From Lamprocystis purpurea DSM 4197 (GTDB lineage: Bacteria > Pseudomonadota > Gammaproteobacteria > Chromatiales > Chromatiaceae), in the NCBI RefSeq assembly GCF_000379525.1, contig NZ_KB902535.1, positions 1 through 33,354 on the forward strand: DNA of 33,354 nt, in the 5' to 3' direction. Under the pieces are notes generated by a model. It was not told the DNA's origin and did no database searches. It saw only the letters and a program-made list of their open reading frames with translations. Shown piece after piece: positions 9,798 through 33,285 of this stretch. Both the position numbers and the translations under genes were made by a program. Position 1 is the stretch's first letter, and the number at the start of each line of letters is the position of its first letter.

Positions 9798-10020
9798 CCA
9801 GTTGTCCGGCCGTGGGCCGACGTCCGCAGGGCGCCGGTCCGCGAGCCCCAGGAAGATCCGCCGCATCGGGACCCGGGCTGGTGTCCCGCCATTCGTAGAA
9901 TCAATCTGCAACCGCAGCTCCGGACGCTTGCGCGTTCTGGGCCGGCGAGGTGCGGTCGGAAAACAAGGATGACACCAATCCAATAGGCCTCTTCCCCCCC
10001 GACCGAGGCTTAAAGGACGG

Positions 10021-10053
10021 CCGGTCCCCGGGTCACCCGAGGACCGGTTTTTT
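10021..10053 (+). terminator. Rho-independent terminator
   Basis: CCGGTCC and GGACCGG close an inner CGGG/CCCG stem around a TCA loop, followed by TTTTTT. The T-run is on the plus strand, so it ends the OmpA-family transcript about 220 bases after its stop. The same hairpin lies 18 bases past the purB stop, but without a U-tract in that direction. Confidence 0.8.
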
Positions 10054-10064
10054 CTTCGATGGAG

Positions 10065-11996
<1,932 letters not shown>

Positions 11997-14267
11997 TCAG
12001 CCGGCCTGCACGGCGGCCAGCGCGGTCAGGTTGAGCAGACCGCGTACCGAGGTGCTGGTGCTGACGATGTGTGCCGGGCGGTCCGCCCCGAGGAGCATGG
12101 GTCCGACGTTGATGGCGCCGCTCGGTCCACCCAGGGTGCGCAGCAGGTTCAGGGCAATGTTGGCGGCATCCTGATTGGGCATGATGAGCAGGTTGGCGCG
12201 CCCGGTGAGCCGTGAGCCGGGGAAGCGCACTTCACGCATGGCGGCGTCCAGTGCCAGGTTGGCGTGCATCTCGCCCTCGACTTCCAGTTCAGGCGCGCTC
12301 TCCTGGAGTAGCCGCAGGGCGTCGCGCATCTTGTTTGCGGAAGCCGTATCACGGCTGCCGAAGTTGGAGTGCGAGACCAGGGCAATCTTGGGCTCCAGAC
12401 CGAAGCGGGCGACCTGGGCCGCGCACAGCCGCGTGATCTCGGCCAGGTCTTCGGCGCTCGGGTCCTCCTGCACATAGGTGTCGGCGATGAAGAGCGGTCC
12501 CTGGGCCAGGATGACCGCATTCATGGCCGTGAGCCGACGCACCCCGGGGGCGCGGCCGATGATGGCTTCCACGTGCTCCAGGTGCCGCAGATAACGCCCC
12601 ACCACACCGCAGATCATGGCATCCGCGTCTCCCGAGCGCACCAGGGCGGCGGCCAGGACCGTGGGTGCCTTGCGCACATACTCGCGGACCTCGGTGAGGG
12701 TGTAGCCGCGCCGCTTGACGCGCTCGAAGACGGTGGCGCAGTGAACGTCGAAACGGTCGTTTTCGGACGCCACCACCAGATCGAAATCGTGACCCGGACG
12801 GATGGAGAGTCCCAGGTCGCTCAGTCCTGCCCGGATCACCTCCGGCCGACCGATCAGCATGGGCCGGGCGATGCCCTCGCTCACCGCCTGCTGGGCCACC
12901 TGCAAGATTTTTTCCTGCTCGCCCTCGGCGAAGACCACCCGGCGCGGCGCCGCGCGCGCGTGCTCGAAGACGGGTTTCATGGTCATGCCGCTGCGGTAGG
13001 CGCGCGCGCTCAGGTTCTCCCGATAGGCATCGAGATCCGCAATGGGGCGGGTCGCCACGCCCGATTCCATGGCGGCCTGGGCCACCGCGGGGGCCAGATG
13101 CGCCATCAGGCGCGGATCGAATGGCCGGGGGATCAGGTACTCGGGACCGAAACTCAGACCCTGTCCGCCATAGGCCGCGCGCACGATGTCCGAGGGTTCA
13201 GCCCGCGCCAAATCCGCGATGGCATACACGCACGCGGTTTGCATGGCCTCGTTGATCTGAGTCGCCCCGCAGTCCAGGGCGCCGCGGAAGATGAAGGGAA
13301 AACACAGAACGTTATTGACCTGGTTGGGGAAATCCGAGCGCCCGGTGGCGATGATGGCATCCGGGCGGGCGGCGCGGGCCAAGTCCGGCATGATCTCCGG
13401 ATCGGGATTGGCCAAGGCCATGATGATCGGGCGCTCCGCCATGCGGATGAGCCATTCGGGTTTGAGCACGCCGGCGGCGGAGAGCCCCAGAAAGACATCG
13501 GCCCCGGTGATCGCCTGCTCCAGGGTGCGCAGGTCGGTCGCCACCGCGTAGCGGCTTTTGTAGGGGTCCATCACCTCCACCCGGCCCTGATAGACCACGC
13601 CGGCGATGTCGGTCACGATGACGTTCTCGGGCTTGAGCCCCAGGGCCACCAGCAGGTCCAGGCAGGACAGGGCCGCCGCGCCGGCCCCGGCGGTGACCAG
13701 GCGCACCGCGCCGATCTCCTTTCCGACCACCCGCAGGGCGTTGATGATGGCCGCGCTGACCACGATGGCCGTGCCGTGCTGATCGTCATGGAACACCGGG
13801 ATGCCCATGCGCTCCTGGAGCGCACGTTCGATGATGAAGCAGTCCGGGGCCTTGATATCCTCCAGGTTGATGCCGCCGAAGGTGGGTTCGAGCCGCGCCA
13901 CGGTCTCGACGAAACGCTCCGGGTCCAGTTCGTCGATTTCGATGTCGAATACATCGATGTCCGCGAACTGTTTGAACAGCACCGCCTTGCCTTCCATGAC
14001 CGGCTTGCTCGCCAGGCTGCCGATGGCGCCCAGACCCAATACCGCGGTGCCGTTGGTGATGACCGCCACCAGATTGCTGCGGGAGGTATAGAGCGCCGCG
14101 TTCAGGGGATCGCGCACGATCTCCTCGCAGGCGGCGGCGACCCCCGGGGAATAGGCCAGGCCGAGATCGCGTTGGTTGGCGAGCTGTTTGGTGGCCTTGA
14201 TCTCCAGCTTGCCGGGCTTCGGGTAACGGTGATAATCGAGTGCGTTCTGCTTCAGGTCGTCGGACAT
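11997..14267 (-). CDS. maeB: NADP-dependent malic enzyme (malic enzyme-phosphotransacetylase fusion)
   Basis: The 756-residue product is a two-part enzyme of typical MaeB length. Residues 1-about 430 form the malic enzyme: Y39 in [15 protein letters not shown]94 in [12 protein letters not shown], the metal site [14 protein letters not shown] (about 131-143) and [16 protein letters not shown] Rossmann NADP domain follows ([19 protein letters not shown]). Residues about 430-756 form a phosphotransacetylase-like domain ([53 protein letters not shown]) that in MaeB is regulatory rather than catalytic. It converts malate to pyruvate, CO2 and NADPH. ATG 14267 gives the canonical N-terminus; the open frame continues upstream only through repeat DNA. 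Confidence 0.97.
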
Positions 14268-15142: not shown

Positions 15143-18100
15143 TCAGAGTGCTTCCCGGATCGCGGTGAGGGCCGCCAGTACCTGGGGCAGCGGGGTGGGC
15201 AGCGCGCCGACGAAGGCGATGAGAAAGTCCAGCGACTCATGCACGGAGGCGACCTCACGCGGACTCGCGCCGCGGCGGAAGAGTTCCCGGTAGAGCGCGA
15301 TGATGCGTTCCACGGCCGCGGGCGACGGGCTTGTCTGGGTGAGCAGCAGGACCGTCGCGTTGTCGGCCTCGGCCACCGCGTGACGGAAGCTCGGCTCCCG
15401 TGCGTTGCGCTCGGCGGCCACGTCGATCATCGTCTGAAGCGTGTCGGGCAGGCTGGCCTGCCAGTCGCCGCCGCTGGTCGCATCCAGCCGCAGGGCCAGC
15501 AGCTTGGCCGCGGCCCAGAGTGCGAAGGGGCAGGGGTCCGGTTGGTCGGATTGCGCGCCGGCGCGGGCCAGATAGTGCGCCATGTTGGCCAGGGCTTCGA
15601 GCCGGCCGCGCGGTTCGGTCTGGAGCCACGCGAGCTGGCGGCAGGCCTGGCCGAGCAGGGTCAGTCGCTCCGCCGTGGGCGCGCGTTGGCTGACCGCGGC
15701 CAGCTCCAGGATGTACTGCTCGATCCGCCCGGTCAGTTCCTGGCGGCGATCCTCCTTATGATGCCCCTCCGGTTCATGGCGCAGCGTCCGCCACTGCTCG
15801 CCGATGAGCCGCACCCCGAAGTCGCTGCATTGTTCCAGTGTCCGCAGCGAACAATCGCCGGTCTCCGCGCCCAAGGCGGTTTCCAGCCAGGTCACCGCTT
15901 CCTGATAGGCGCCGGTCTCGCCCCAGGCGAAGCCGATGGCCGCCGCCAGGTCTGCCCGCGCAAGCCAGGGGTCGCGCTGTGCCTCCGGGATCGCGCCGAT
16001 CAGGTCCTCGATCCGCGTGCGCAAGACGGTCAGTGTCGCGGGATCGGCGTCGCGCTCGCGGACCTGGGTGCGGATGGACTCGCTCAGATTGCTGAGGTCC
16101 GCGATCACTTCAAACGGGGCATGGTAGGGGCGGCGCACCGGCGCGACCGCGGGCGCGGGGACCACCCGCAGGCGATAGGCCGGGTCGCCGTAACATTGGT
16201 AGGCACCCCAGGTGTTCACGTCGGCAAAGCGCCGCCAGACCTCCTCGCGCGCGGCGCGTACCGACTCGCCAAACGGCTGGCCGGCGAGCATCCGGGCATA
16301 GAAGCCCTCGGCGAAGGCCAGTCCGGCGCGGTCGTCCACCGCCCATCCGGCTGCGATCACGGCCTTGACGCCCATGCGGATGAACTGCACCGCCAGGTTG
16401 GCCGCCAATTGGTTGGCGTTGGTCGGGGCCGTCGCTTGCGTCTTACCGAGGTGGCAGCAGTTGATGAACACCAGTTCCGGTACCCAGCGCAGTTGTTCGA
16501 CGTCGCCCGGAGTCAGGAAGGTTTCTTTGCCGATGACCATACCGGAGATCCGCTCGGCGACCGCCGGCGGGGCCTGACCACAGGCCGGGCAGGTGTCGAC
16601 CGCTCGCCCGGGCAGTGGGAATTCGTGCTCGCCGTGACCGGCCAGGTGCAGGATGCGCCAGGCGTCTTTGTGCAGTCCGTTGAGGATGGCATCGGCTTTT
16701 TCGTCGATCCGGTCCGTGACCTGGAAGCCGTGGTCGCGCAGCAGTTGGGCCACCCGGCCGGCTTCCTCACGGGCCCCCGGCAGGTCGCTGAAGGCGTTCC
16801 AGCCATCGAGATCCGGATTGCCCACGACATAGGCCTTGGCCTCCTGGGCATGTGCGACTTGGGACCGATAGCTCGGTGTCTTGAGCTGCCGCACGAGGCC
16901 GCCGCTGACGGCGGGCGGACGGCCGGTATGGCTCCAGCGGTCCTCCAGGAGTTCCCAGGGGAAGCGGGCCGAAACCTCGTCCACCAGCACCACCAGATGG
17001 CGCTGCTTGGGCGCGAGTTCGCGCAGCCGCGTGGGCAGGAGCATCTCGAACAGCGTTTTGGCTGCCTCGGCGTTAGCGGCGGGCGAACGGGACGCCTGGG
17101 CGATGAAGGTGTCGGCCAGGCGTAACTGACCGGCCGCCAACGTCACCTCGGCGCGCGCCCGGTCGGTGGCCGCGATGAAGCGCAGCGCCTCGCCGCGCGG
17201 CTCCTGGGTGATTTCCAGACGTTGCCACCATTCCGCGGCCTCCTCACAACGCACCCGCCGCAGACCGCCCACCCCCTCCTCGACCACCCGCGGTTGCCAG
17301 ACGAGGCGGGCGGCCAGTTGGTCGTCCTGCAGGACCTCCTCGAGCGCCTCGGCGGCCACCAGCGCCAAATCCTGATAGAGCTCGATGATCTCGATGTGAT
17401 CCAGGGCCACCCGATCGCCGAGCCCGGTCGCTGCCAGTCGATCGGCGGCGGCCAAGGCGCCGCGCAGGATCGCCTTGACGGCATCGGCGACCCGCAGTCC
17501 GCCGGCACCGGAACCGACCAGCAAGGCCGAGAAGGCCGCGGAGCGCACCGTGTCGGGCGCACCGAAACGGTCGCTCGACCAGCGGGCGACGCGCAGCGCA
17601 AAATCGAGCAGGGCATCCCGGACCCCCGTTTCCAGTGACGCGGGCGTCAGTTCCCCGACCTGACCGAGTCCGACCACCACCGCACCGGCCGGCATCGCCC
17701 GCGGGCGCTCATTGATGAAGAGCGCCGAACTGCCCGCCCGGCCGGGATAGAGTCCCAGTTGCAAACACTCGCTCAAACGTCCGGCAAGCCGTTCATCCAG
17801 CGCCAGTTCGGCACTGACGATGGTATCGCCAAGGTAATGTCCGACCAGCACCGGGTAGCGGGCATAACTCAGGTCGCCATGGCGGATGCAGACCTGGATG
17901 GCCGGTGCCGCCGGCGCGTCCCCCGGGTCCTCGGTCGACCGGCTGGATCCGAAGCCGAAGGATTCCACCGCCTGCTGATCCGGGATGTCGTCGGTGGGCG
18001 GCGGTGCGGGCAGCGGGAACAGTGCGCCATCCTCGGCCGCATCGTCCGCGGCAGTAGTGCGGGTCGCACCCGGCGGCGTCCGGGTCAGCCGGGTGGTGGT

Positions 18101-20659
18101 GCCCGTCATGAGCAGATCCAGGTAACCAGGGAAGGCGGCCTGACGCGTGCAGAGTGCGTCGTGGGCGGTGTCCCCGACATACCAGACCGGCACGTTCGGC
18201 AGTTGTCCGGAACGCCAGGTGACGGTGCCGTCCCCCTGGGCGGTGGCGAGAAAGTCGAGCTGTCCGGCAGCCGCCGGGTCGGACGCGTCCGCCGGTTGGA
18301 GCCGGTAGTCCGCGATGGTTGCCGCCTGGTGACCAGCCACCGAGACCAGGTGTCGCGGGTCGACCGGGCTGTCACGCAGCAGGCTCCAGGTCGCGCGTGC
18401 CTGGCGCAAGGCTGCAGCAGTGGGCGGGTTCCAGTCGGCACGCAGGGTCTGCTTGAGGTCGTTCCAGGCATCCATCCGGAGCAGGTCCGGCCCCCGTGTC
18501 GCGCCGGGCAGCAACTCCAGGAGTGCCGGATAGGCGCGCAGGATGTCGACCAGCGCATCAGGCCCCTGGGTGAGATCGAGCAGGCTCAACCGTGTCAGGG
18601 TCGGATGCCGGCCGGTGAGCCAGCGCAGGGCCTCGCAGGTGCCCTGGTGAGGGGTGCCGAGCATGAGCAGCCGCGACTCGGGCAAAGCGATGATGCGCCG
18701 CCACAGTGCCGCGCCCGTCCCGCCGTCGCCGATCATGGCGCGCACCACCAGTCCGCCCAGCGAGTGGGCGATCAGCCGGACGGGTTGTTTGGTCCGCTCG
18801 GCCTCGGGCAGCCAGGCGTCCAGGTGTTCGGTCAGAGTCTGCGCGGTGTCCAGAATCGAGCGCCGCCAGTCGTAGGCAAAGACCTCGACGCGGTGGCTGC
18901 GCGCCAGGAACGCGATCAACGGGCCGTAGCGTGCGTCCAGCGGTCCGACCGGCTCCACGCGATCCGTTCGGTGGCGCCGCAGGCGCTCGATGCCGCCGCG
19001 TTGCAGGGCCTCATAGTCCAGCCAGAGCGTGTGCCCATCGACCGCCAGGCTGCTGCCCATCATGCCGGGCACGATCACCGCCAATGGCTTGGGTGTACCG
19101 GCCGAGCGGGCGCGGCGCACCGTCTCGCGCCAGCGCGGCGCTTCATGCGGGGCCTGCTCGATGGGCTGGAAACCGGCATCCGACCCCTCGGCGCGGGCGA
19201 GCGCGGCGGTCAGCCAGCGCAGGCTGCGTTCATTGCTGAAATAGCCGAAATGATTGACCTCCGGACCTTGATCGCGGAGCAGCCGCGCCCCTCCCGGGGG
19301 GCGGCGCAGACCACCCGCCATCGACCCGGTATTGACGACCAGATCGTGATCGGAGCCATAGAACCAGTCGGCAACGAACAGTTTGAGCTGACCCCAGAGC
19401 GCGTCGCCCTGGGCGTCGCCGGCGATGACCGTCAGGTCCGCGCGGGTCATCAGGTCCGGATGCTGGAGCAGTCGGGTCAGGGCCGAGCCGGGCATCATCG
19501 CCTCCAGGCCGGGCAGGGTGCGCGGATCGGTGCGCGCCTTGACCGCCGCCAGCAGAAAGTCCATGGTCGCGTCGGTCAGGGTCCAGCCCGCCAACTGGGC
19601 GAGCACCGACAGCCAGCGGTCCAGGCGGCCGGAGGCCAGGGTGGTGCCCCGGGCGGGGCAGGCGACGCGCACGAAGCGGCTGATCCGCGGGCGCGCGGTC
19701 GCGAGCAGGGTCAGCAGTTGCGCAAGCGCCGCGCGGTCCGCCCGATAGGCCTGGTCGTGCTCGACGCGGGCGGTCGCGGCGAGCGGGCTCAAGCCGAGTT
19801 GCGCGGCGATCGTGTGGTCCGCGGCGAACAGAGTGTCGAGCAGGTCCGGCTGCAGTGGATCGGTCGCCCGGTCGCGCTCGCCCAGGCACAGCAGTTCGCC
19901 GACCAGACCGCCGCGCGAATGGGTGACCAGATGCAACTGGGCTCCGGCGGGGAGTGCGCGCACCAGTTCCAGCGCATTGACGATCGGGCTCTCGGTGAGC
20001 GAGCGGTGTTCCCAGGCGAGTGCCCGCGTGCCGTAGCGCCGGCTTAAGTCGTCGCGCGCCGCGGTGGCGGCGGCGGACCCGGCCCAGAGTGCGCCGAAGG
20101 ACCCCCGGCAACTGGAGCCGGTGCCGTGAATGAAGACCAGGAGCGGCCCCTGGTCAACGGCGAGCGGCGTCTGTGCGGTGACTGGCGTCAGGGCGAAGGT
20201 GTCTCCCAAGGCGCAGTGATAGAGTCCCGGCGACTGGCCCTGAAGCTGGTGCTCCTCCAGTCGCTCGCCCAGGGTACGGATGCTCTGATCCTTGAGATCG
20301 ACGCCGAAGCAGTCCAGGACCGAGAGACCGAGACCCCAGCCCCCGCGGGTTACGCCGCGCGCCTGCGCGGGCGGCCGGGTGTCCAACTCCCAGATCGTGT
20401 CCCGATCGATGGCAATCCCGCGGGTCGCGGTCTGCTGTCCCCGTTCACGGACCAGGTCGTCGGCCCGGGTCCAGAGGGCGAACCCATTGGTCAGTGTAAC
20501 GCGCACCACCTCGTCCGCGGCCAGGCTCGTCTCGCCGCCGCTCGCCCGGCCGCTGCCCGGCACCAGTCGCCGTGCGGTCTGCACGGCCACCAGTCGGGTG
20601 GCAGGCAGGGCGGCTGCCTGTGAGTCACCGCGGATGCGGACCCGTGGATTTTCTGCCAT
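15143..20659 (-). CDS. Giant protein: two alpha/beta-hydrolase domains plus CHAT protease and helical C-terminus
   Basis: The product is 1838 residues without a signal peptide. Residues 1-165 are unassigned. Hydrolase 1 (about 165-500) has the oxyanion stretch LLVFIHGTGSSC and a nucleophile elbow THSRGG (S248). Hydrolase 2 (about 520-860) resembles LCAT/PGAP1-like lipases: VIVPGMMGSSL, elbow AHSLGG (S633), a later GDGTVTW acidic motif and a TAHDAL histidine. Residues about 890-1190 are unassigned. The CHAT caspase-like domain (about 1205-1500) carries H1342 in LAGHGEHEF and C1401/C1402 in VFINCCHLGK, with a CPAC insert between them. The C-terminus (about 1510-1838) is alpha-helical, TPR-like. 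GGGAGC precedes the ATG. CHAT proteins are cysteine proteases, some acting as immune effectors; here protease and lipase activities are predicted in one chain. Confidence 0.85.
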   Translation of the reverse strand: MAENPRVRIRGDSQAAALPATRLVAVQTARRLVPGSGRASGGETSLAADEVVRVTLTNGFALWTRADDLVRERGQQTATRGIAIDRDTIWELDTRPPAQARGVTRGGWGLGLSVLDCFGVDLKDQSIRTLGERLEEHQLQGQSPGLYHCALGDTFALTPVTAQTPLAVDQGPLLVFIHGTGSSCRGSFGALWAGSAAATAARDDLSRRYGTRALAWEHRSLTESPIVNALELVRALPAGAQLHLVTHSRGGLVGELLCLGERDRATDPLQPDLLDTLFAADHTIAAQLGLSPLAATARVEHDQAYRADRAALAQLLTLLATARPRISRFVRVACPARGTTLASGRLDRWLSVLAQLAGWTLTDATMDFLLAAVKARTDPRTLPGLEAMMPGSALTRLLQHPDLMTRADLTVIAGDAQGDALWGQLKLFVADWFYGSDHDLVVNTGSMAGGLRRPPGGARLLRDQGPEVNHFGYFSNERSLRWLTAALARAEGSDAGFQPIEQAPHEAPRWRETVRRARSAGTPKPLAVIVPGMMGSSLAVDGHTLWLDYEALQRGGIERLRRHRTDRVEPVGPLDARYGPLIAFLARSHRVEVFAYDWRRSILDTAQTLTEHLDAWLPEAERTKQPVRLIAHSLGGLVVRAMIGDGGTGAALWRRIIALPESRLLMLGTPHQGTCEALRWLTGRHPTLTRLSLLDLTQGPDALVDILRAYPALLELLPGATRGPDLLRMDAWNDLKQTLRADWNPPTAAALRQARATWSLLRDSPVDPRHLVSVAGHQAATIADYRLQPADASDPAAAGQLDFLATAQGDGTVTWRSGQLPNVPVWYVGDTAHDALCTRQAAFPGYLDLLMTGTTTRLTRTPPGATRTTAADDAAEDGALFPLPAPPPTDDIPDQQAVESFGFGSSRSTEDPGDAPAAPAIQVCIRHGDLSYARYPVLVGHYLGDTIVSAELALDERLAGRLSECLQLGLYPGRAGSSALFINERPRAMPAGAVVVGLGQVGELTPASLETGVRDALLDFALRVARWSSDRFGAPDTVRSAAFSALLVGSGAGGLRVADAVKAILRGALAAADRLAATGLGDRVALDHIEIIELYQDLALVAAEALEEVLQDDQLAARLVWQPRVVEEGVGGLRRVRCEEAAEWWQRLEITQEPRGEALRFIAATDRARAEVTLAAGQLRLADTFIAQASRSPAANAEAAKTLFEMLLPTRLRELAPKQRHLVVLVDEVSARFPWELLEDRWSHTGRPPAVSGGLVRQLKTPSYRSQVAHAQEAKAYVVGNPDLDGWNAFSDLPGAREEAGRVAQLLRDHGFQVTDRIDEKADAILNGLHKDAWRILHLAGHGEHEFPLPGRAVDTCPACGQAPPAVAERISGMVIGKETFLTPGDVEQLRWVPELVFINCCHLGKTQATAPTNANQLAANLAVQFIRMGVKAVIAAGWAVDDRAGLAFAEGFYARMLAGQPFGESVRAAREEVWRRFADVNTWGAYQCYGDPAYRLRVVPAPAVAPVRRPYHAPFEVIADLSNLSESIRTQVRERDADPATLTVLRTRIEDLIGAIPEAQRDPWLARADLAAAIGFAWGETGAYQEAVTWLETALGAETGDCSLRTLEQCSDFGVRLIGEQWRTLRHEPEGHHKEDRRQELTGRIEQYILELAAVSQRAPTAERLTLLGQACRQLAWLQTEPRGRLEALANMAHYLARAGAQSDQPDPCPFALWAAAKLLALRLDATSGGDWQASLPDTLQTMIDVAAERNAREPSFRHAVAEADNATVLLLTQTSPSPAAVERIIALYRELFRRGASPREVASVHESLDFLIAFVGALPTPLPQVLAALTAIREAL

Positions 20660-20954: not shown

Positions 20955-21746
20955 CTACTCGAACACCCCAAAACGCCGGGCCGTGGCTGAACCCAGAATC
21001 TGCGGCGTCTGGGCCAGGCGGGAACTGGGCAGATACTCGCGGATGGCGTTGAACCAGACATCGTAGTTGGACGGCTTGCGCTCGCGCAGGGTCTTGAGCG
21101 CGTAATAACTGAAGGCGCCGTTGGCCCGTCCCTGGAAGCTGGTGTCGTAGGAGTATTCGGTATCTTTGCAGCCGGCGAGCAGCAGGTCGCCGCCGGTGCG
21201 CCGCAGGCCGCTGACGACGCGCGGGGCTTGCGCAATGCCCCGCGGCAGTTCGTCCTCGGACATCCAGTCTTCCAGCGGCATGAAACGGGCGCGCGGCCCG
21301 CCGGCGTCCAGATCGTCCTCGCGCCCGCGGATCACCGAGCCCGAGTGACAACTGTCGGAGAGGAACAACAGCCGTACGCCCTTGCCGAGGGCGGCGAACA
21401 GCGTGCGGATCTCGTCGTCCAGGAGCGGACCGCGGGTGCCGATATCATGGGGGCAGAGGGCCTCGTCGCGGCCGTCCGGTTCATCGCCGGAGCTGTCGGG
21501 GACCCAGGTGCCATGACCGGAATAGGTCAACACCAGGGTGTCGCCCTCGCGCGCGGCACCGATCAGGCCGCGGATGGCCGTGACCATGGCCGACTTGGTC
21601 GCCTGCCCATTGAGCAGCTTGGTGACTGAAAAGCCGCGTTTGCCCAGTTCTACCGCCCAGTCATTGGCATCGTTCACGCACCCGGAGAGGTCGTTGTTGG
21701 TGCCCGGATAGTCGTTGATACCGATGCAGAGTGCCTTCTTATTCAT
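20955..21746 (-). CDS. Metacaspase-like (C14 family) stand-alone protease
   Basis: The 263-residue product starts MNKKALCIGINDYPGTNNDL, the characteristic first strand of type I metacaspases/orthocaspases. It has the catalytic dyad H78 in TYSGHGTW and C133 in SDSCHSGS, together with the acidic GDEPDGRDEALCPHD loop typical of this group. There is no signal peptide or prodomain, so the protein is a compact cytosolic protease with predicted arginine/lysine specificity (family knowledge). ATG 21746 matches the fold start; upstream in-frame sequence is repeat DNA. It lies on the same strand as the CHAT gene but is separated from it by a REPIN, so it is not obviously in the same operon. Confidence 0.92.
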   Translation of the reverse strand: MNKKALCIGINDYPGTNNDLSGCVNDANDWAVELGKRGFSVTKLLNGQATKSAMVTAIRGLIGAAREGDTLVLTYSGHGTWVPDSSGDEPDGRDEALCPHDIGTRGPLLDDEIRTLFAALGKGVRLLFLSDSCHSGSVIRGREDDLDAGGPRARFMPLEDWMSEDELPRGIAQAPRVVSGLRRTGGDLLLAGCKDTEYSYDTSFQGRANGAFSYYALKTLRERKPSNYDVWFNAIREYLPSSRLAQTPQILGSATARRFGVFE

Positions 21747-21892
21747 GGTGAGGATCTCAGTGCGTGGGTGAAAGCGGTGCTCAGACGCGCAGCATGGCCT
21801 GACACCTGGCCCGCTGGGGAGTGAGTTTGGTCGGTGCCGGCCGGTTGCGCAATATGGCGGCCCCCGCAACGCACCCGCGGCCTTACAGCGGC

Positions 21893-24568: not shown

Positions 24569-26404
24569 ATGAACACAAGACGCTGGATGATGTTGGCTGG
24601 GGTCCTGATATTGGTGGGCCTGGGCGTGTTCTGGTGGGGCACGGCGGACCAGTGGGGGCCCTCGCCGAGCAAGGGGCGCGCTCCGGCGGCAACGGCCGCC
24701 GTGGCGGAGCCGGGCCACGGGCGGCGCATCGCGCTCGTGATCGGCAACGGCGCCTATGACCCGCAGACCGGCTGGAACCGGCTGCGCAGCCCGGACGCCG
24801 ACGCCGCGGCGGTGGCCAAGGTGCTGCGCGACGATCTGCAGTTCGACGCGGTGATCGAACAGACCGACCGGCGCCGCGGCCAGATGATCGACGATCTGGA
24901 CCGCTTCGCCCAGGCGCTGGGCGAGGGTGATACCGCCTTTTTCTATTATTCCGGGCACGGGGTCGGGGTGGGGGAGGACAACTATCTGATCCCGGTGGAT
25001 GCCGCTGACCCGAGCAGCGAGCGGCGGCTGCGCGCCGACGGCGTGGCACTGCGCGAAGTGCTCGGGGTGCTGGAGGAGCGCCGCACCGCGCTCAACGTGG
25101 TGGTGCTCGACGCCTGCCGCAACAATCCGCTCGCCCAGGGCAAGAGCTATGGCGGGGCCGGGCTCAAAGGGATCGAGCGGGAGCGACTCACCGGCGAAAC
25201 CCTCATCGGCTATGCCACCGGGCCGGGCAGGACGGCGGCCGACGGGGGCGGGGCACTCAGTCCCTATACCGCCGCCCTGGTGGCGGAGCTGGCGGCCCCC
25301 GGCAAGAGCCTGTGGGAGGTCTTTGGGGCGGTGACCGCGCGGGTGCAGCGGGCGACCGACGCCAAGCAGCAACCCTGGAAGAACGACACCCTGGTGAGGC
25401 CACACTATCTGGCCCAGGTGTCGCCGCCGCCCCCGCCAACGGTGGGGTATTTGCAGGTGAACGTGGACGCCCCCGGCGCGCGGGTGTGGGTGGATGGGCG
25501 CGAGGTTGGGGTGGCCGGGCCGGGTGAACCGCTGAACCTGAGCAACCTGTCGGTGGGCACGGTGCGGGTCGCGGCGAGCGCCCCTGGGCGGCAGCGGGTG
25601 GAGCAGCAAGTCGCACTGCAATCCGCGGTTTGGACTCAGGTCGGCCTGGCGCTGCCGGGCGCGGCGCCGGCGGTGCCCCCAGTCCCGGTGCCGCCGGCGG
25701 CGGCCGGGACCTGGACCGAGCCCCAGACCGGGATGGAATTCGTGTGGGTCCCGGCGGGCCGTTTCCAGATGGGCTGCGGCGGGGCCTGGGCGGGGGAGTG
25801 TTTCGACAATGAAAAGCCTGCCCGGCAAGTCCAGGTCAAGGGGTATTGGCTGGCGAAAACGGAGGTGACGCAGGCGCAGTGGCAGGCGGTGATGGGCAGC
25901 AACCCGTCCGAGTTCAAAGACTGCGCCGACTGTCCGGTGGAGGGGGTGAGTTGGAACGACGCCCAGGCGTTCATCGCCAAGCTCGATCCGGGCGGTCAGC
26001 AGGGGTTGCGGCTACCGACCGAGGCCGAGTGGGAATACGCCTGCCGCGGCGGCGGCAAGGAGGAGACCTACTGCGGCGGTAAGGATTTGGATCGGCTGGC
26101 CTGGTATGGCGAGAACAGTGGGAGCAAGACCCACCCGGTCGGCGGCAAGACGGCGAACGGGTTGGGGCTCTATGACATGAGCGGCAATGTCTGGGAGTGG
26201 ACTTGTTCGGCCTGGGCCAACCCGTATGATGGTGCTGAGCAGCGATGCATCAGCAATAATGATGCCAAGTCCGCGCGGGTGGTGCGCGGCGGGTCTTGGG
26301 GCAACAGCTCCAGGGACGCGCGCGCCGCCAACCGCTTCACCTTCGATCCCGAGGACCGCAACTTCATTCTCGGTTTGCGTCTTGCCAGGACGCTTTCCCC
26401 TTAA
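24569..26404 (+). CDS. Membrane-anchored caspase-PEGA-FGE-sulfatase protein (DGR-type target A)
   Basis: This 611-residue product has an N-terminal membrane anchor (residues 6-23, WMMLAGVLILVGLGVFWWG). A C14 caspase domain (about 52-285) starts RRIALVIGNGAYDPQ, with H130 in YYSGHGVGVG and C183 in VLDACRNNP. A PEGA-like beta domain follows (about 293-367, GYLQVNVDAPGARVWVDG). The FGE-sulfatase domain (about 381-611) has GMEFVWVPAGRFQMGCGG, RLPTEAEWEYACRGG and GLYDMSGNVWEW, closing with RVVRGGSW and LGLRLARTLSP. FGE domains with this ending have a C-type-lectin fold and are common DGR targets; the formylglycine-generating function itself is not implied. GGAGGAG precedes ATG 24569. The domain order suggests an external variable ligand-binding tip coupled to a protease. 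It is followed by an avd fragment. Confidence 0.88.
   Translation: MNTRRWMMLAGVLILVGLGVFWWGTADQWGPSPSKGRAPAATAAVAEPGHGRRIALVIGNGAYDPQTGWNRLRSPDADAAAVAKVLRDDLQFDAVIEQTDRRRGQMIDDLDRFAQALGEGDTAFFYYSGHGVGVGEDNYLIPVDAADPSSERRLRADGVALREVLGVLEERRTALNVVVLDACRNNPLAQGKSYGGAGLKGIERERLTGETLIGYATGPGRTAADGGGALSPYTAALVAELAAPGKSLWEVFGAVTARVQRATDAKQQPWKNDTLVRPHYLAQVSPPPPPTVGYLQVNVDAPGARVWVDGREVGVAGPGEPLNLSNLSVGTVRVAASAPGRQRVEQQVALQSAVWTQVGLALPGAAPAVPPVPVPPAAAGTWTEPQTGMEFVWVPAGRFQMGCGGAWAGECFDNEKPARQVQVKGYWLAKTEVTQAQWQAVMGSNPSEFKDCADCPVEGVSWNDAQAFIAKLDPGGQQGLRLPTEAEWEYACRGGGKEETYCGGKDLDRLAWYGENSGSKTHPVGGKTANGLGLYDMSGNVWEWTCSAWANPYDGAEQRCISNNDAKSARVVRGGSWGNSSRDARAANRFTFDPEDRNFILGLRLARTLSP
26300..26368 (+). other. 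Putative DGR variable region of target A
   Basis: Codons 578-600 of the protein, after an invariant GGGTCTTGG. Many codons are AAC or look derived from AAC/GAC/AAT. Compared with 31528-31596, the copies differ at 18 bases, none at a third codon position, all compatible with adenine-specific mutation of one template. The following GTTTGCGTCTTGCC block is invariant. Confidence 0.8.
26377..26393 (+). other. Small hairpin just after the variable region
   Basis: GCGTC (26377-26381) and GACGC (26389-26393) can pair. The same hairpin is at 31605-31621 and, with one change, in the middle gene. Its position directly 3' of the variable region resembles that of the hairpins that promote retrohoming in characterised DGRs. 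Confidence 0.4.
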
Positions 26405-26517
26405 TTCCTTTAACACTTTACCCCTTGAAGGCATTGAGCCCTAAGGATAGGCGGTCTTCTCCGGGGTAAGGGTTTAGGGGCGGGTGCGCTCGGACATGAT
26501 GTGTTGACCAGAATCCC

Positions 26518-26587
26518 GTAGGGTACGCATCGCGTACCCGCCAGGCCGCGGCGACTGCTGGGGGTGGGTACGCGATGCGTACCCTAC
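26518..26587. repeat. REPIN (GTAGGGTACGCATCGCG family)
   Basis: The arms 26518-26539 and 26566-26587 are perfect 22-bp reverse complements. Each arm is itself a REP: GTAG followed by GGTACGC-ATC-GCGTACC. It lies between target A and the avd fragment. Confidence 0.85.
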
Positions 26588-26678
26588 ACTGAAAGGGGCG
26601 TCAGTATCGGTATTGATCGCACCGGGGGCACGGCGGGCAGTGTCCCTCTTTAAAAATTTTTTTGGAGCCCCGGCACCC

Positions 26679-26792
26679 ATGGCCGACAATGCCCGTCACA
26701 CCGGTCCGGCCCTCGAGGTCATGTACCGCTTCATCCTCTGGCTCATTCCGACGCTGGAGAAGTTTCCGCGCGGGCAGCGGCCTGAGCAATGA
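26679..26792 (+). pseudogene. avd: Truncated DGR accessory gene avd (four-helix-bundle protein)
   Basis: A 37-codon frame with a GGAG motif 11 bases upstream reads MADNARHTGPALEVMYRFIL and then WLIPTLEKFPRGQRPEQ. The run MYRFILWLIPTLEKFPRGQR matches the first helix and turn of Avd/S23-type four-helix-bundle proteins, which normally continue with a FLLGDRI-like second helix and reach about 110-130 residues. Here the match stops after GQR, and the stop codon lies 12 bases from the end of the convergent antitoxin gene. In DGRs, Avd binds the reverse transcriptase and template RNA and typically lies just downstream of the target gene, as this fragment does. The truncation suggests that the retroelement was deleted or replaced by the toxin-antitoxin module. 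The match is from memory of the family, not from a search. Confidence 0.75.
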
Positions 26793-26804
26793 GCGGACGT
26801 AGGT

Positions 26805-27095
26805 TCAGGTGTGCAGAGCGGCCAAAGCGCCAGGGTTGGCCTCGACGATCCTCAGCAGCGCTCGCGCGGGTCCAGCCGGCCGCACGCGGTGCTGCTCCCA
26901 GTTCTGCAGCGTCTTGGGCTTGACGCCGATCAGATAGGCAAAGCGCGTCTGGCTCAGGCCGGTCCGCTCGCGGATCGCCTTGACATCGGGTTCCGGAAAT
27001 TCCTGCACCCGTGCCTCGGCCACGCGCTCACCGCGCATGTGGCGCCCCATGTCGCGCACGCTCTCCAGCAACTCTTCAAACTGCTTATTCTCCAT
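26805..27095 (-). CDS. XRE-family antitoxin (HigA/NadS-like)
   Basis: The 96-residue product has a helix-turn-helix of the Cro/CI type at about residues 38-70: DVKAIRERTGLSQTRFAYLI followed by KPKTLQNWEQHRVRP. The closing GPARALLRIVEANPGALAAL is typical of NadS/HigA antitoxins paired with RelE-like toxins. It binds the toxin and represses the operon (family knowledge). Its start overlaps the toxin's end by 11 bases, giving the toxin-first order usual for higBA-type modules. It ends convergently against the avd fragment, implying that the module was inserted there. Confidence 0.9.
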   Translation of the reverse strand: MENKQFEELLESVRDMGRHMRGERVAEARVQEFPEPDVKAIRERTGLSQTRFAYLIGVKPKTLQNWEQHRVRPAGPARALLRIVEANPGALAALHT

Positions 27096-27411
27096 TTTTT
27101 AGCTCAGCTTCTATGACATCGGCCAGTCGGTGCAGTTGCTCCTTGCTTAGGTCGGATGCTACGTTTTTGGCGTAGGCGTAAAGCAAATAGCATTGTTCCT
27201 TGCTGCACCAATAGTAGTAAATCACGCGCGCACCGCCGCGTTTTCCACGCCCTGGTAGTGCTATTCGTAACTTGCGCAGACCGCGACCACCGGGAATCAG
27301 GTCCCCCGCAGCGGGGTTGTTGAGTAGCATGCCCTGCAATTCAGCAATATCCTCGTCCGAGAAGAGGTCGCTGGCGCAACGGACTAAGATCGGCAGTTCG
27401 ATGAAAACCAT
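27085..27411 (-). CDS. RelE/HigB-family toxin
   Basis: The 108-residue product begins MVFIELPILVRCASDLFSDE and has the RelE core: LQGMLLNNPAAGDLIPG, LRKLRIALPGRGKRGGARVI, YYYWCSKEQCYLLYAYAKN and a final basic-acidic helix SKEQLHRLADVIEAEL. It matches the HigB2-like branch, ribosome-dependent mRNA interferases. The ATG at 27411 was chosen because the fold begins there and a strong -10 box (TACAAT) ends six bases upstream. No Shine-Dalgarno is present, which fits a leaderless transcript. The gene looks intact. Confidence 0.9.
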   Translation of the reverse strand: MVFIELPILVRCASDLFSDEDIAELQGMLLNNPAAGDLIPGGRGLRKLRIALPGRGKRGGARVIYYYWCSKEQCYLLYAYAKNVASDLSKEQLHRLADVIEAELKNGE

Positions 27412-27417
27412 GGTTGT

Positions 27418-27446
27418 ATTGTACGCTCGAAGCGGCGTTATTGCAG
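27418..27446 (-). promoter_or_regulatory. Promoter of the HigBA/RelE-type module, probably leaderless
   Basis: TACAAT (27418-27423, minus strand) lies six bases before the ATG. A weaker -35, CTGCAA (27441-27446), is 17 bases further up. The geometry is the same as that of the VapBC promoter at 1035-1063. Confidence 0.5.
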
Positions 27447-27466
27447 GCGCTGCCGGCAAAGCCGGC

Positions 27467-27631
27467 AGTTCCAAACTTGAGTGGCGGTTGCCGGCAGCGT
27501 GTCGGCGGCGAGGCTGATGGTGGATGCGCAGCGCTTATCCACCCTACAAAACCGGCTCGGCTGTAGGGTGGATAAGGCGCGCCGCACAATGTTCGGGACG
27601 CGGCACGTCGGTCGTGCGCGCCGCATCCACC
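27467..27631. repeat. Long REPIN copy (GTAGGGTGGATAAG family), inverted relative to 14341-14556
   Basis: The copy starts at GGCAGTTCCAAACTTGAGTG and runs through two inverted REP units centred near 27548 to CCGCATCCACC. Similarity to the 14341-14556 copy, in opposite orientation, covers more than 150 bases. The region up to 27789 carries no gene; a TATAGT box at 27719-27724 may serve the next gene. Confidence 0.7.
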
Positions 27632-27789
27632 AGGGGCCGCACAAGATCCTCAAGGTTTGGCACTGCTGGGTATGCGGCCACTTGTGTGCGCAACCGCAGA
27701 CGCTGCGGTATAGTGAGCACCGCGGATTCAACCCGGCAGCGTGCCGGGACCAGACACAGCGACGTTGCTTCAGCGGGCGGGAGATGGGC

Positions 27790-29331
27790 ATGCGTGGTCA
27801 GGGTTACAGGACGCAACGACGCCGTTCTTGGTGGTGTCTCGGTCTGGGGGCGCTGCTGCTTGCCGGCGCCGCACCGGCGGCGGAGCCTGAGCGCCAGGCC
27901 CTGGTGATCGGCAATGCCGCGTACACCGGCGAGCCGGTGCTGGTCAACACCCGCAACGACAGCGTGGACATGGCGCGCAAGCTCATCGGACTGGGCTTTC
28001 GGGTGACCGCGCACCAGGATCTCGGGCGGCGCGACCTGGCGCGGGCGCTCACCGACTTCGTGCGCCAGGTGCGCGGCAGCGACGGTGTCGCACTTTTCTA
28101 TTACTCGGGTCACGGCTTGCAGGTCGGCGGCAGGAACTATCTGGTTCCGGTGGACGCGCAATTGCACGACGCGCTGGACGTCCCCAACGAGACCATCCCG
28201 GTCGACACCCTGCTGGCCGGGTTGGGCGAGCGCGGCGACAGCGCCGTCAACCTCATCGTGCTGGACGCCTGCCGCAACAACCCCTACCTGCGCTCCGACC
28301 GCAAGGCCATCGGCGACAAGGGCCTGGCGCGGGTCGAGGCGCCCGGCGGCACCCTCATCCTGTACGCCACCCGCCCCGGCGAGACCGCCAGCGACAACCC
28401 GGCGGGGCGCAACGGGCTCTTCACCCAGCATCTGCTCACCGCCCTCGACCAGCCCGGCGTCCCGGTGGAGGAGACCTTCAAGCAAGTCGCCCGCGGCGTG
28501 CAGCGCGACAGCAAGAAGGCCCAGACCCCTTGGCAAGAGGGCCTGATCCTCGGGCAGTTCTATTTCCGGCCGGTGGTGGGCGGGGGCGGGCCGGTGCCGC
28601 CCGTGCAAGCGGGCAGTGACACCCCGGCAGCGACCTGGACCGAGCCCAAGACCGGGATGGTTTTCGTGCCGGTGCCGGCGGGCCGCTTTCAGATGGGCTG
28701 CGGCGGGGCCTGGGCGGGGGAGTGCCAGGAAATTGAAAAGCCTGCCCGGCAAGTTCAGGTCAAGGGGTATTGGCTGGCGACAACGGAGGTGACCCAGGCG
28801 CAGTGGCAGGCGGTGATGGGCAGCAACCCGTCCAACTTCAAAGACTGCGCCGACTGTCCGGTGGAGCAGGTGAGTTGGAACGACGCCCAGGCGTTCATCG
28901 CCAAGCTCGACCCGGGCGGTCAGCAGGGGTTGCGGCTACCGACCGAGGCCGAGTGGGAATATGCCTGCCGCAGCGGGGGCAAGGAGGAGACCTACTGCGG
29001 CGGTAAGGACCTGGATCGGCTGGCCTGGTATGACAAGAACAGCGGGGATAAGACCCACCCGGTCGGCGGCAAGACGGCGAATGGGTTGGGACTTTATGAC
29101 ATGAGCGGCAATGTCAGCGAGTGGACCTGTTCGGCCTTGACCCTGTATGATGGTGCTGAGCAGCGATGCATAAGCAATAATGATGCCAAGCTTGCCAAAC
29201 TTGGGTTGGTGTTGCGCGGTGGGTCTTGGAACGGCTCCAGTGAAGCCCGCGCCGCCGATCGCCTCAACGGCGATCCCGAGGAGCGCTGGGTCAATATCGG
29301 TTTACGTCTTGCCAGGACGCTTTCCCCCTGA
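27790..29331 (+). CDS. Exported caspase-FGE-sulfatase protein (DGR-type target B)
   Basis: The 513-residue product has a signal peptide (basic YRTQRRRSWW, core CLGLGALLLAGAA, cleavage near PAA-EP). A C14 caspase domain spans about 36-265 (RQALVIGNAAYTG, H108 in YYSGHGLQVG, C161 in VLDACRNNPY). A short proline/glycine linker leads to an FGE-sulfatase domain (about 282-513) nearly identical to those of the neighbouring genes but without the PEGA domain. ATG 27790 has GGGAG at good spacing; ATG 27784 in the same frame is an alternative. Eight cysteines in the FGE domain are conserved among the three paralogues and could form disulfides after export. Its variable tail differs more from A and C, including one codon fewer, so it may have had another template or be older. 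Confidence 0.87.
   Translation: MRGQGYRTQRRRSWWCLGLGALLLAGAAPAAEPERQALVIGNAAYTGEPVLVNTRNDSVDMARKLIGLGFRVTAHQDLGRRDLARALTDFVRQVRGSDGVALFYYSGHGLQVGGRNYLVPVDAQLHDALDVPNETIPVDTLLAGLGERGDSAVNLIVLDACRNNPYLRSDRKAIGDKGLARVEAPGGTLILYATRPGETASDNPAGRNGLFTQHLLTALDQPGVPVEETFKQVARGVQRDSKKAQTPWQEGLILGQFYFRPVVGGGGPVPPVQAGSDTPAATWTEPKTGMVFVPVPAGRFQMGCGGAWAGECQEIEKPARQVQVKGYWLATTEVTQAQWQAVMGSNPSNFKDCADCPVEQVSWNDAQAFIAKLDPGGQQGLRLPTEAEWEYACRSGGKEETYCGGKDLDRLAWYDKNSGDKTHPVGGKTANGLGLYDMSGNVSEWTCSALTLYDGAEQRCISNNDAKLAKLGLVLRGGSWNGSSEARAADRLNGDPEERWVNIGLRLARTLSP
29230..29298 (+). other. Putative DGR variable region of target B
   Basis: Codons after GGGTCTTGG include AAC, GGC, GAT, CTC, GTC and AAT at the places that vary in A and C. 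The region is one codon shorter, and some differences (AGT for AGG, GCC for GCG, TTA for TTG) are not adenine-type, so it is a weaker case than A versus C. Confidence 0.5.
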
Positions 29332-29464
29332 TTCCTTTACTGCTTTATCTCCTGAAGGCATTGAGCCCTAGGGCGTTTTCCGGGAAATGATCGACCGACG
29401 TGTAGGGGCGACTTTGGGTGATTTCCGGAGCACCGGATACCACCCGCCATCGGCTCGGACGCAG

Positions 29465-29486
29465 GTGCGACTGAAGGCGCACCTAC
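29465..29486 (-). repeat. REP-like hairpin (GTAGGTGCGCCTTCAG type)
   Basis: On the minus strand GTAG is followed by GTGCGC...TCGCAC, a stem with a six-base loop. It is a single unit, without a clear inverted partner. Confidence 0.5.
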
Positions 29487-29516
29487 ATTGACCGGTATCC
29501 GAATTGTCGAAAGTCG

Positions 29517-29600
29517 GTAGGATGGGCAGAGCGAGCGCGATGCCCATCCTCACGCGTCGCGGTGGCCGGATGGGCATCGCGCTCGCTCTGCCCATCCTAC
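29517..29600. repeat. REPIN (GTAGGATGGGCAGAGC family)
   Basis: The arms 29517-29549 and 29568-29600 are perfect 33-bp reverse complements. Each arm is a GTAG-tipped hairpin (GATGGGC...GCCCATC). The sequence after it continues into the direct repeat. Confidence 0.85.
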
Positions 29601-29750
29601 GCGTTGGCGCGAAGCCCAGGATTCCTTGTCATTTTTACAGCGACTTATCAGCCTTTCATCGGTGCCGAACGCCGCCTGACGGCGGCGGGCCGGCAGGCTG
29701 TCGGCGGTCCCAGTCGCGGCTTCGGCGCGGTGTTGGCGAATCCTTTCACC
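29590..29750 (+). repeat. 161-bp direct repeat, left copy (flanks target C)
   Basis: From GCCCATCCTACGCGTTGG to GGCGAATCCTTTCACC it matches 32296-32456 in the same orientation. About 12 mismatches were counted by eye, mostly clustered at 29617-29631. Confidence 0.85.
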
Positions 29751-29877
29751 GGGTCGCGCGAGGCCGCCCAAATTTGGAATTGCTGATCGTCGGCGACGCC
29801 GCCGCGCGCCGGGGCCAGGTGCGGTATATTGCGCGCCGACGATTGAACCATTGACGCACCGAGCGGAGTGAAGGGGC

Positions 29878-31632
29878 ATGAGGGATCGAGGGCATACACG
29901 GCAACGCGGCGGCTGGCACGGGTTCCGGCTGCTTGGTCTGGGCCTGTTATTGCTGCTGGGGAGCACCGTGGCCGCGGCGAGCGGGGGGCGCGCACTGGTG
30001 ATCGGCAATGCCAAGTACGAGCGTGAGCGACCCCTGGTCAACACCCTCAACGATGCGCGGGACGTGGCGGCCAAGCTGACCGCGCTGGGGTTCGCGGTCA
30101 CCCAGGTGCAGGACCTCGATGGGCGCGCGTTGCGCCTGGAGGTCAACCGCTTCCTCGACGCCCTCCGCGCCGCGGTGGAACCCGCCGTGATCTTCTATTC
30201 CGGGCATGGTCTGCAGGACAGCGACCGCGACAGTTACCTGTTGCCGGTGGATGCCAGGATCGAGCGCGAGGCCGACATCAAAAGCGAAGGGGTGAGTGTC
30301 AACGCCATCCTCGCGGAGTTGGAGCGCCGCCCCAAGGGGGCCATGAGCCTGGTGGTGCTCGACGCCTGCCGGGACAACCCCTATGCCGCCTCGCGCGGCG
30401 GCAAGGGGCTCGGCCGGGTGACGGCGAACGGCGGCACCCTGGTGCTCTATGCCGCCAGCCCCAATCAGACCGCCGCGGACAACCCGCGCGGGCGCAATGG
30501 GCTCTTCACCCAGCACCTGCTGGCGGTGCTCGACCGTCCCGGGCTGGACATCGAGGACGGCTTCGACGAGGTGGCCCTGAATGTCGACCGGGACAGTAAC
30601 GGCAGCCAGGTGCCCTACAAGGAGGGGAACCTGCTCGGCAAGCACTATTTGGCGCCCCCGGCGGCGGTGGGTTATCTGCAGGTGAACGTGGACGCCCCCG
30701 GCGCGCGGGTGTGGGTGGATGGGCGCGAGGTGGGCCGGGCCGGTCCGGGTGAGCCGCTGAACCTGAGCAACCTCCCGGTGGGTACGGTCCTGGTCGAGGC
30801 GAGCGCCCCTGGGCGGCAGCGGGTACAGCAGCAAGTGGCGCTCCAGTCGGGGGTCTGGACCCCGATCAGCCTGATCCTGCCGGGCGCGGCGCCGGCGGCG
30901 CCTCCTGCCCCGCCCCAGGCACCCGTCACGGCTGGGACCTGGATCGAGCCCAAGACCGGGATGGTTTTCGTGCCGGTGCCGGCGGGCCGCTTTCAGATGG
31001 GCTGCGGCGGGGCCTGGGCGGGGGAGTGTGACGATGATGAAAAGCCTGCCCGGCAAGTCCAGGTCAAGGGGTATTGGCTGGCGACAACGGAGGTGACGCA
31101 GGCGCAGTGGCAGGCGGTGATGGGCAGCAACCCGTCCAAGTTCAAAGATTGCCCCGACTGTCCGGTGGAGCAGGTAAGTTGGAACGACGCCCAGGCGTTT
31201 ATCGCCAAGCTCGATCAGGGCGGTCAGCAGGGGCTGCGGCTGCCGACCGAGGCCGAGTGGGAATACGCTTGTCGCGGCGGCGGCAAGGAGGAGACCTACT
31301 GTGGCGGCAAGGACCTGGATCGGCTGGCCTGGTATAGGGAGAACAGCGGGGGCAAGACGCACCCGGTCGGCGGCAAGGCGGCGAATGGGTTGGGGCTTTA
31401 TGGCATGAGCGGCAATGTCCGGGAGTGGACTTGTTCGGCTTGGGCCAATCCGTACGATGGTGCTGAGCAGCGATGCATAAGCAATAATGATGCCAAGTCC
31501 GCGCGGGTGGTGCGCGGCGGGTCTTGGAACAGCAGCTCCAGGGGCGCGCGCGCCGCCTTCCGCTACAGCAGCGTTCCCGGGGGCCGCAGCAACGATCTCG
31601 GTTTGCGTCTTGCCAGGACGCTTTCCCCTTAA
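29878..31632 (+). CDS. Exported caspase-PEGA-FGE-sulfatase protein (DGR-type target C)
   Basis: The 584-residue product starts with a signal peptide (RDRGHTRQRGGWHG, core FRLLGLGLLLLLGSTV, cleavage near AAA). A C14 caspase domain spans about 37-255 (RALVIGNAKYERERP, H110 in FYSGHGLQDS, C164 in VLDACRDNPY). A PEGA-like domain (about 264-338) and an FGE-sulfatase domain (about 355-584) follow. The PEGA and FGE parts are very close to those of target A, while the caspase part is clearly more diverged, so modules have moved independently. AAGGGG precedes ATG 29878. The last 34 residues contain the variable region and the invariant LGLRLARTLSP end. A predicted periplasmic or surface location follows from the signal peptide and conserved cysteines. 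Confidence 0.88.
   Translation: MRDRGHTRQRGGWHGFRLLGLGLLLLLGSTVAAASGGRALVIGNAKYERERPLVNTLNDARDVAAKLTALGFAVTQVQDLDGRALRLEVNRFLDALRAAVEPAVIFYSGHGLQDSDRDSYLLPVDARIEREADIKSEGVSVNAILAELERRPKGAMSLVVLDACRDNPYAASRGGKGLGRVTANGGTLVLYAASPNQTAADNPRGRNGLFTQHLLAVLDRPGLDIEDGFDEVALNVDRDSNGSQVPYKEGNLLGKHYLAPPAAVGYLQVNVDAPGARVWVDGREVGRAGPGEPLNLSNLPVGTVLVEASAPGRQRVQQQVALQSGVWTPISLILPGAAPAAPPAPPQAPVTAGTWIEPKTGMVFVPVPAGRFQMGCGGAWAGECDDDEKPARQVQVKGYWLATTEVTQAQWQAVMGSNPSKFKDCPDCPVEQVSWNDAQAFIAKLDQGGQQGLRLPTEAEWEYACRGGGKEETYCGGKDLDRLAWYRENSGGKTHPVGGKAANGLGLYGMSGNVREWTCSAWANPYDGAEQRCISNNDAKSARVVRGGSWNSSSRGARAAFRYSSVPGGRSNDLGLRLARTLSP
31528..31596 (+). other. Putative DGR variable region of target C
   Basis: Codons 551-573. 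They contain AAC, AGC, GGC, TTC, TAC, GTT and GGG where target A has GGC, AAC, GAC, AAC, TTC, GAT and GAG. All 18 base differences from A are at first or second codon positions. Confidence 0.8.
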
Positions 31633-32628: not shown

Positions 32629-33285
32629 ATGCCTCTCGCCACCGCCCCCATTATCGTCCCCGGCCGCCACTGGGCATTGCGATCCTTGCTGCTGGCCGGC
32701 CTGGCCGCGACCGCCGGCGCGCCGGCTTTCGCGCAGCAGGATGCGCCGGCGGTCGACGCCAAACAGGTCAGTGTCGTCGATGGTCAGGCGGACCGGCTGA
32801 CGCTGACGGTCGAACCCGCCAAGGACCGCTTTGTGGTCAACGAGCCCATCCGCTTCAAGGTCAGCGGCAACCGCACCTTCTTCCTCTATGTCTACAGCGT
32901 CGACCCGAACACGCGCGACGCCACCCTGCTGGTTCCGAGCCGCCGGCACAGCAACAACAAATATCCGGCCGGGCGCGAGATCCAGGTGCCGGACAAGAGC
33001 TTCGAGTTCGTCGCGGACAAGGCGGAGACTGAGCGCTTCGTGTTCGTTGCCAGTACGCGCTACATCGACCTCGATCAGGCGCAGCGCACGGCCCCGGGCA
33101 ACTCGCCGCCCGCGCAGGGGAAAGCGGCCGACGGGTGGTTGGTGACCAAGGAGGCCGCGCTCGAAGACCTGTTCGCGGAGAAGGGTGTGCGGGTGCGTGA
33201 TGTGCGCGGCGGCAAGCCGGACGGGGATCTCGCGATCCGCGACATCGAGATCAAGATCACCGAGCGTGGGGGCGCCCCGAACTGA
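32629..33285 (+). CDS. Exported DUF4384-domain protein
   Basis: The 218-residue product has a signal peptide (core LRSLLLAGLAATAGAPAF, cleavage near FAQ). A DUF4384 domain spans about residues 55-145: DRFVVNEPIRFKVSGNRTFF, LYVYSVDPNTRDATLLVPS, NKYPAGREIQVPD and ERFVFVAST. Family knowledge: DUF4384 is a beta-sandwich found in exported proteins, often fused or adjacent to caspase-like and kinase domains, with no proven function. AAGGAA lies nine bases before the ATG. Being next to three exported caspase proteins, it may belong to the same envelope system. The last 70 residues are charged and unassigned. Confidence 0.82.
   Translation: MPLATAPIIVPGRHWALRSLLLAGLAATAGAPAFAQQDAPAVDAKQVSVVDGQADRLTLTVEPAKDRFVVNEPIRFKVSGNRTFFLYVYSVDPNTRDATLLVPSRRHSNNKYPAGREIQVPDKSFEFVADKAETERFVFVASTRYIDLDQAQRTAPGNSPPAQGKAADGWLVTKEAALEDLFAEKGVRVRDVRGGKPDGDLAIRDIEIKITERGGAPN

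Follow-up and report, generated by a model that had tools for sequence, protein, structure and literature searches.

The window is the whole stretch of DNA analysed here, that is, the entire contig C172 (33,354 bases) of a 6.9-Mb draft assembly in 211 contigs (completeness score 100%). Both contig termini (1-198 and 33297-33354) consist of repeats that recur almost identically on contig C173. The window contains three paralogous genes, denoted a, b and c, in which a caspase domain is joined to an FGE domain, together with the following features.

24569 to 26404, plus strand: gene a, caspase - FGE protein (Pfam Peptidase_C14 and FGE-sulfatase; SGHG and DAC motifs)
26252 to 26414, plus strand: tract equal in a and c save 18 variable bases (a/c alignment)
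26300 to 26368, plus strand: variable region core of gene a, 23 codons (base comparison with c; relatives' templates)
26518 to 26587, no strand: palindrome separating gene a from the avd stump, its 25-nt arms being 96% complementary
26679 to 26792, plus strand: N-terminal Avd stump, 37 residues (comparison with the intact Avd of genome G028; family search)
26805 to 27474, minus strand: HTH protein and RelE-type protein, a toxin-antitoxin-like pair (Pfam HTH_31 and RelE)
27790 to 29331, plus strand: gene b, a caspase - FGE paralogue whose variable end, with its core at 29230-29295, looks older (Pfam; base comparison)
29878 to 31632, plus strand: gene c, caspase - PEGA-like - FGE protein (Pfam; PEGA at 20.7 bits against a cut-off of 20.8)
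31528 to 31596, plus strand: variable region core of gene c, 23 codons (base comparison with a; relatives' templates)

Upstream of the caspase-FGE genes, the minus strand encodes a 1838-residue CHAT and DUF7379 protein and a separate caspase-domain protein (15143-20659 and 20955-21869), and a DUF4384 protein is encoded downstream of gene c (32629-33285, plus strand). Judged by sequence, a, b and c are predicted caspases, the Peptidase_C14 domain (Pfam E 6.5e-33 to 9.5e-38) having its His and Cys motifs, SGHG and DAC, intact. The variable residues are located at the C-terminal side in an FGE/CLec domain, which is matched by Pfam FGE-sulfatase and for which TvpA of Treponema denticola (2y3c) ranked first among PDB entries, both in sequence (E 2.7e-31) and in fold (Foldseek E 2.6e-10, with ordinary FGE enzymes close behind). 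The AlphaFold model of the FGE domain had a mean pLDDT of 66, with values of ~40-48 over residues 161-210 and a weak variable end. While the FGE/CLec fold is common to TvpA and the window proteins, the solved TvpA chain covers no caspase domain, unlike a, b and c. The N-termini resemble export signals by eye, and PADLOC returned generic caspase hits only for the three proteins.

The first-pass annotation had described adenine-type hypervariation at the ends of a and c, and a recount of the bases agrees with it. When 26300-26368 was compared with 31528-31596, 18 of the 69 bases differed, five at first, thirteen at second and none at third codon positions. The codons that vary are numbers 1, 2, 6, 11, 13-16, 18, 19 and 21-23 of the patch. 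An A is present in one copy at 16 of these differences (eight A/G and eight A/T), and the remaining two, C/G and G/T, need an A in the common template. Upstream in the same aligned domain (25724-26299), where the annotation had reported partly silent changes, 23 of 43 differences between a and c are indeed at third positions and 16 contain an A (patch versus upstream, Fisher exact test: p=2.9e-5 for third positions, p=2.3e-4 for A-containing differences). A run of 18 non-third differences had p=0.00065 when the codon-position labels were permuted over all 61 differences. The differences closest to the patch are at 26251 and, on the 3' side said to be identical, only at 26415, so that a tract of 163 bases is identical apart from the 18 variable bases, while a and c diverge by 7.5% upstream of it. 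Across the 51 codons of 26252-26404 there were no third-position changes versus ~6 predicted from the upstream rate (p about 0.002).

Copying from one template leaves the flanks equal and confines the differences to template adenines; after gene conversion by itself no differences should remain, and selection acting on its own would hardly spare silent sites. The differences between a and c all lie at codon positions 1 and 2 and can be explained by template adenines, whereas this does not hold for b, in which third positions account for 8 of 20 differences to a and 8 of 26 to c at the same gene end. Gene b may be an older copy that is out of use. The copy on contig C186 differs over the 23 codons from a by 22 bases and from c by 19, two of them at third positions in each comparison.

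To compare the patches with templates of diversity-generating retroelements (DGRs), we used two templates of relatives (G028 and G107) and four A-rich repeats beside reverse transcriptases (RTs) of G168, of which those on contigs C347 and C198 were counted as template-type without a demonstrated pair of template and variable region (TR/VR). All six aligned codon for codon with the window patches, and of the 18 variable bases 13-16 coincided with an A of the repeat (p 4.5e-7 to 2.2e-5). For the G028 template the figure was 16 of 18 (p 6.7e-7; p 3.8e-4 when only codon positions 1 and 2 were considered). All of these template tests assume independent bases, and the templates were picked with the pattern already in view. 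The cassette of the closed genome G028 (locus L239) runs from a PEGA-FGE target through avd and the RT to the template, and a second target-avd unit is located ~7 kb from its RT. With the BPP-1 reverse transcriptase (Brt) as query, 97 of 194 family genomes gave a match at E 0.001, a level at which other RTs match too, and an 11-row DGR-RT profile (A1) matched seven of the eight genus genomes, own genome included. When 15 loci, 14 around relatives' RTs and one of the own genome (L032), were scanned for TR/VR pairs with >=80% of mismatches at A, pairs were found in six (L164, L165, L167, L170, L118 and L174); in the pair of G107, 12 of 12 mismatches are at a template A. A contig scan for relatives kept 80, with best segments 30-55% identical and none titled Chromatiaceae.

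The accessory protein of G107 weakly matched the window just 3' of gene a (E 0.07). There, the open reading frame at 26679-26792 has 25 of 34 residues in common with the N-terminus of the intact G028 Avd, which lies between an FGE target and its RT and is named Avd by PHROGs. The stump reached 15.3 bits with NCBIfam NF033474 (E 0.019; model cut-off 80) and had no match in Pfam or PHROGs. The window sequence leaves Avd after residue 34 and continues with a stop and then the opposite-strand HTH/RelE-type pair, which occupies the place in which one would look for the remainder of avd and for the RT. Of the Avd that a complete, working DGR would have, the window contains only an N-terminal stump. 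The G028 cassette resembles the window in this stump, in its order of FGE target and avd and in the template A at 16 of 18 variable bases; unlike the window, it has an RT and a template, and its PEGA-FGE targets have no caspase match. Twelve of the 194 family genomes, own included, matched in the Avd search. Among the 15 matches outside the own genome, of which 11 were classified, six are directly upstream of an RT match of the BPP-1 search, and five belong to units of FGE target and avd, either the second unit of G028 or units whose fetched stretch contains no RT. Units of FGE target and avd without their own RT were seen in G143 (L240), G153 (L241-L243) and G028 (L239), and the avd matches of G153 contain stop codons. 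The 70-base palindrome between gene a and the stump has one further counterpart, on contig C173, which gave no substantial match to Avd, RT or FGE.

Within the own genome, profile A1 run up to E 10 matched a single place, C1:267774-268115, which covers model positions 8-121 of 340 and has no [YF]xDD/YxDD motif in the three forward frames of 900 bases. Its assignment to DGRs rests on profile A1 and tblastn, and its sole NCBIfam match was weak and to a model for RTs of group II introns (E 2.1e-8, 33.7 bits, cut-off 300). At this locus (L205) the RT relic (9754-10281, plus strand) faces an FGE protein (10403-12589, minus strand), the end of which aligns to the window patch at 70%. This relic is all that we found of a DGR RT in the draft assembly, where an intact one could be missed because the assembly is a draft. 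The Brt search also gave one own-genome match (E 2.3e-10) of unlisted position, and the only PF00078 match in the genome is an RT fragment at C179:112943. This fragment had no Rfam match within 4 kb and was rejected as a DGR enzyme, since its frames look to us like the terminal part of a group II intron maturase.

Searches of the own genome by BLAST, by a pattern with three mismatches and with a relative's template gave no template repeat for a and c that equals the patches at non-A sites; the nearest templates are those of relatives. The own-genome copies were rejected as templates because they have few AAC/AAT codons in the 23-codon core, namely 0-4 in C186, C52, C142, C168 and C201:125199 and 0-3 in C201:85347, C112, C183 and C179:133230, compared with 11 in the G028 template; C14 and weaker matches to E 10 were outside this count. 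A TR/VR scan (>=85% of mismatches at A) of seven own-genome loci and the window, with L266-L275 outside the scan, gave no pair. As such, the template beside a DGR RT for which the first-pass annotation proposed to search the whole genome was not found in the draft by profile, BLAST or pattern. The absence of both parts, which it had named as refuting its reading, is nearly complete, except for the RT relic and the remains of a template from another DGR lineage.

Further FGE proteins with varied ends are encoded in the genome, among them a caspase (C168), PEGA (C52 and C142) and a kinase protein (C201:125199). Compared with templates of the sister genome G168, the end on C112 had 11 mismatches with nine at template A, that on C183 had 16 with 13, and that on C69 had 20 with 16, each with one third-position mismatch; the share at template A (80-82%) is given without a significance test, each end having been set against the best of five templates. 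The 51-base template fragment adjoining the C69 gene matches a G168 template at 46 bases and differs at five, and is a decayed template of another DGR lineage than that of a and c. The reading frames with these ends have 1467 (C69, L274), 1618 (C183, L275) and 795 (C112, L268) residues. The G028 template is a poorer fit for the end at C201:125199, where 13 of 19 mismatches are at A and five at third positions. No Avd or RT match was found in the C69, C183, C112 and C201 stretches. Considering these comparisons, at least two further DGR lineages seem to have left variable regions without an RT in this genome.

Several of these elements have known counterparts. Thiohalocapsa sp. PB-PSB1 has DGR loci, some degenerate, in which MITE-like repeats replace DGR parts (Dore et al., PMC10907252). 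Like the organism studied here, it is a purple sulfur bacterium with variable FGE/CLec ends on modular proteins, loci that lack RT or template, some of them MITE-replaced, and targets far from the RT; it differs in that intact RTs and templates are kept for each class, while no intact RT was found in our assembly. The caspase passages of that paper describe a CHAT domain on the DGR 2 target and no N-terminal caspase on an FGE target, and its coupling of a diversified binder to a protease in sensors is a proposal only. Variable orthocaspase-CLec proteins are in print (PMC7517822); as reported there, a caspase-type domain is fused to a variable C-type-lectin end in dispersed paralogues, as in the window, but those genomes have DGRs whereas the machinery here is a relic. 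Caspase/FGS conflict systems have also been reported (PMC7159879). Published precedents exist for decayed DGR loci, for targets remote from the RT and for caspase-lectin targets (PMC10907252, PMC7517822). Among the 20 of 59 papers listed by a search of the open-licence literature, none joined Thiodictyon and DGRs, which is a weak absence.

Based on these results, the a and c patches are probably variable regions of a DGR, in a genome from which several DGRs have gone while their hypermutated targets stayed. A DGR ordered target-avd-RT-template would have copied a single template into both genes, its reverse transcriptase misreading the template adenines and the cDNA replacing ~160 bases of each FGE domain, which would give the identical flanks and scattered adenine codons of a and c. 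The cassette would next have decayed to the ~34 avd codons beside a, followed by the toxin-antitoxin-like pair. Other DGRs of the genome would have been lost likewise, with the targets persisting as a binder set that is largely frozen and in part equipped with caspase domains. The part of the first-pass annotation that took the patches for variable regions is supported by the relatives' templates, the Avd stump and the TvpA match; the working DGR that it implied is not, as neither an intact RT nor an a/c template was found in the draft. For proteins of the a/c type, a diversified binder coupled to a protease is a likely role by analogy, and we infer both these functions and a true loss rather than an assembly gap. 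The third-position changes of b, the short stump below the model cut-off and the group II intron match of the relic count against this reading.

We also considered that the DGR could be alive, its RT and template lying in an assembly gap or a dropped contig and acting in trans to write a, c and the scattered copies. The assembly is a 211-contig draft, the window contig ends in repeats, so that machinery could hide in a gap, the C186 copy is near the end of its contig, and a and c look freshly written; activity in trans has been proposed for PB-PSB1 (PMC10907252). However, the genome is scored 100% complete, a ~1 kb RT and a ~120-base template did not turn up in profile, BLAST and pattern searches, and the stump and relic represent real decay, which makes a living DGR unlikely. 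We consider it very improbable that the regions were written in another genome and transferred as finished targets into a lineage that never ran a DGR on them. FGE ends closely related to those of a and c do occur in the genus behind other N-termini, as in a kinase-FGE protein of G127 that shares 79% identity with a across the aligned domain, but the presence of a and c together with the avd stump and an identical tract with adenine-type differences only fits writing in place. Least credible, and scarcely to be entertained, is that gene conversion and diversifying selection made the pattern without any DGR. Conversion could explain the identical flanks, and b diverges in an ordinary manner in the same region; yet conversion erases differences, whereas here 18 are new, none at a third position and 16 with an A, and they lie close to an Avd stump, at codons where the templates of relatives have adenine, which would not be expected.

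Taken all together, the loss of several DGRs with retention of their targets seems to be the best explanation, and since only DGR fragments were found, the a and c proteins may have persisted as hypermutated receptors after their mutator was gone. More tentatively, and with the balance somewhat against it, a lineage in a DGR-rich genus may have lost several mutators and may now inherit, in the manner of germline receptors, a dispersed and frozen repertoire of caspase-, kinase- and PEGA-linked proteins with recognition patches written by retro-hypermutation. Surveys that start from the RT miss such orphan variable regions, and the DGR of the window is visible through its product, the avd stump and relics at scattered places. 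Should the machinery really have disappeared, this case would allow one to ask whether hypermutated immune-type receptors stay useful once diversification stops.
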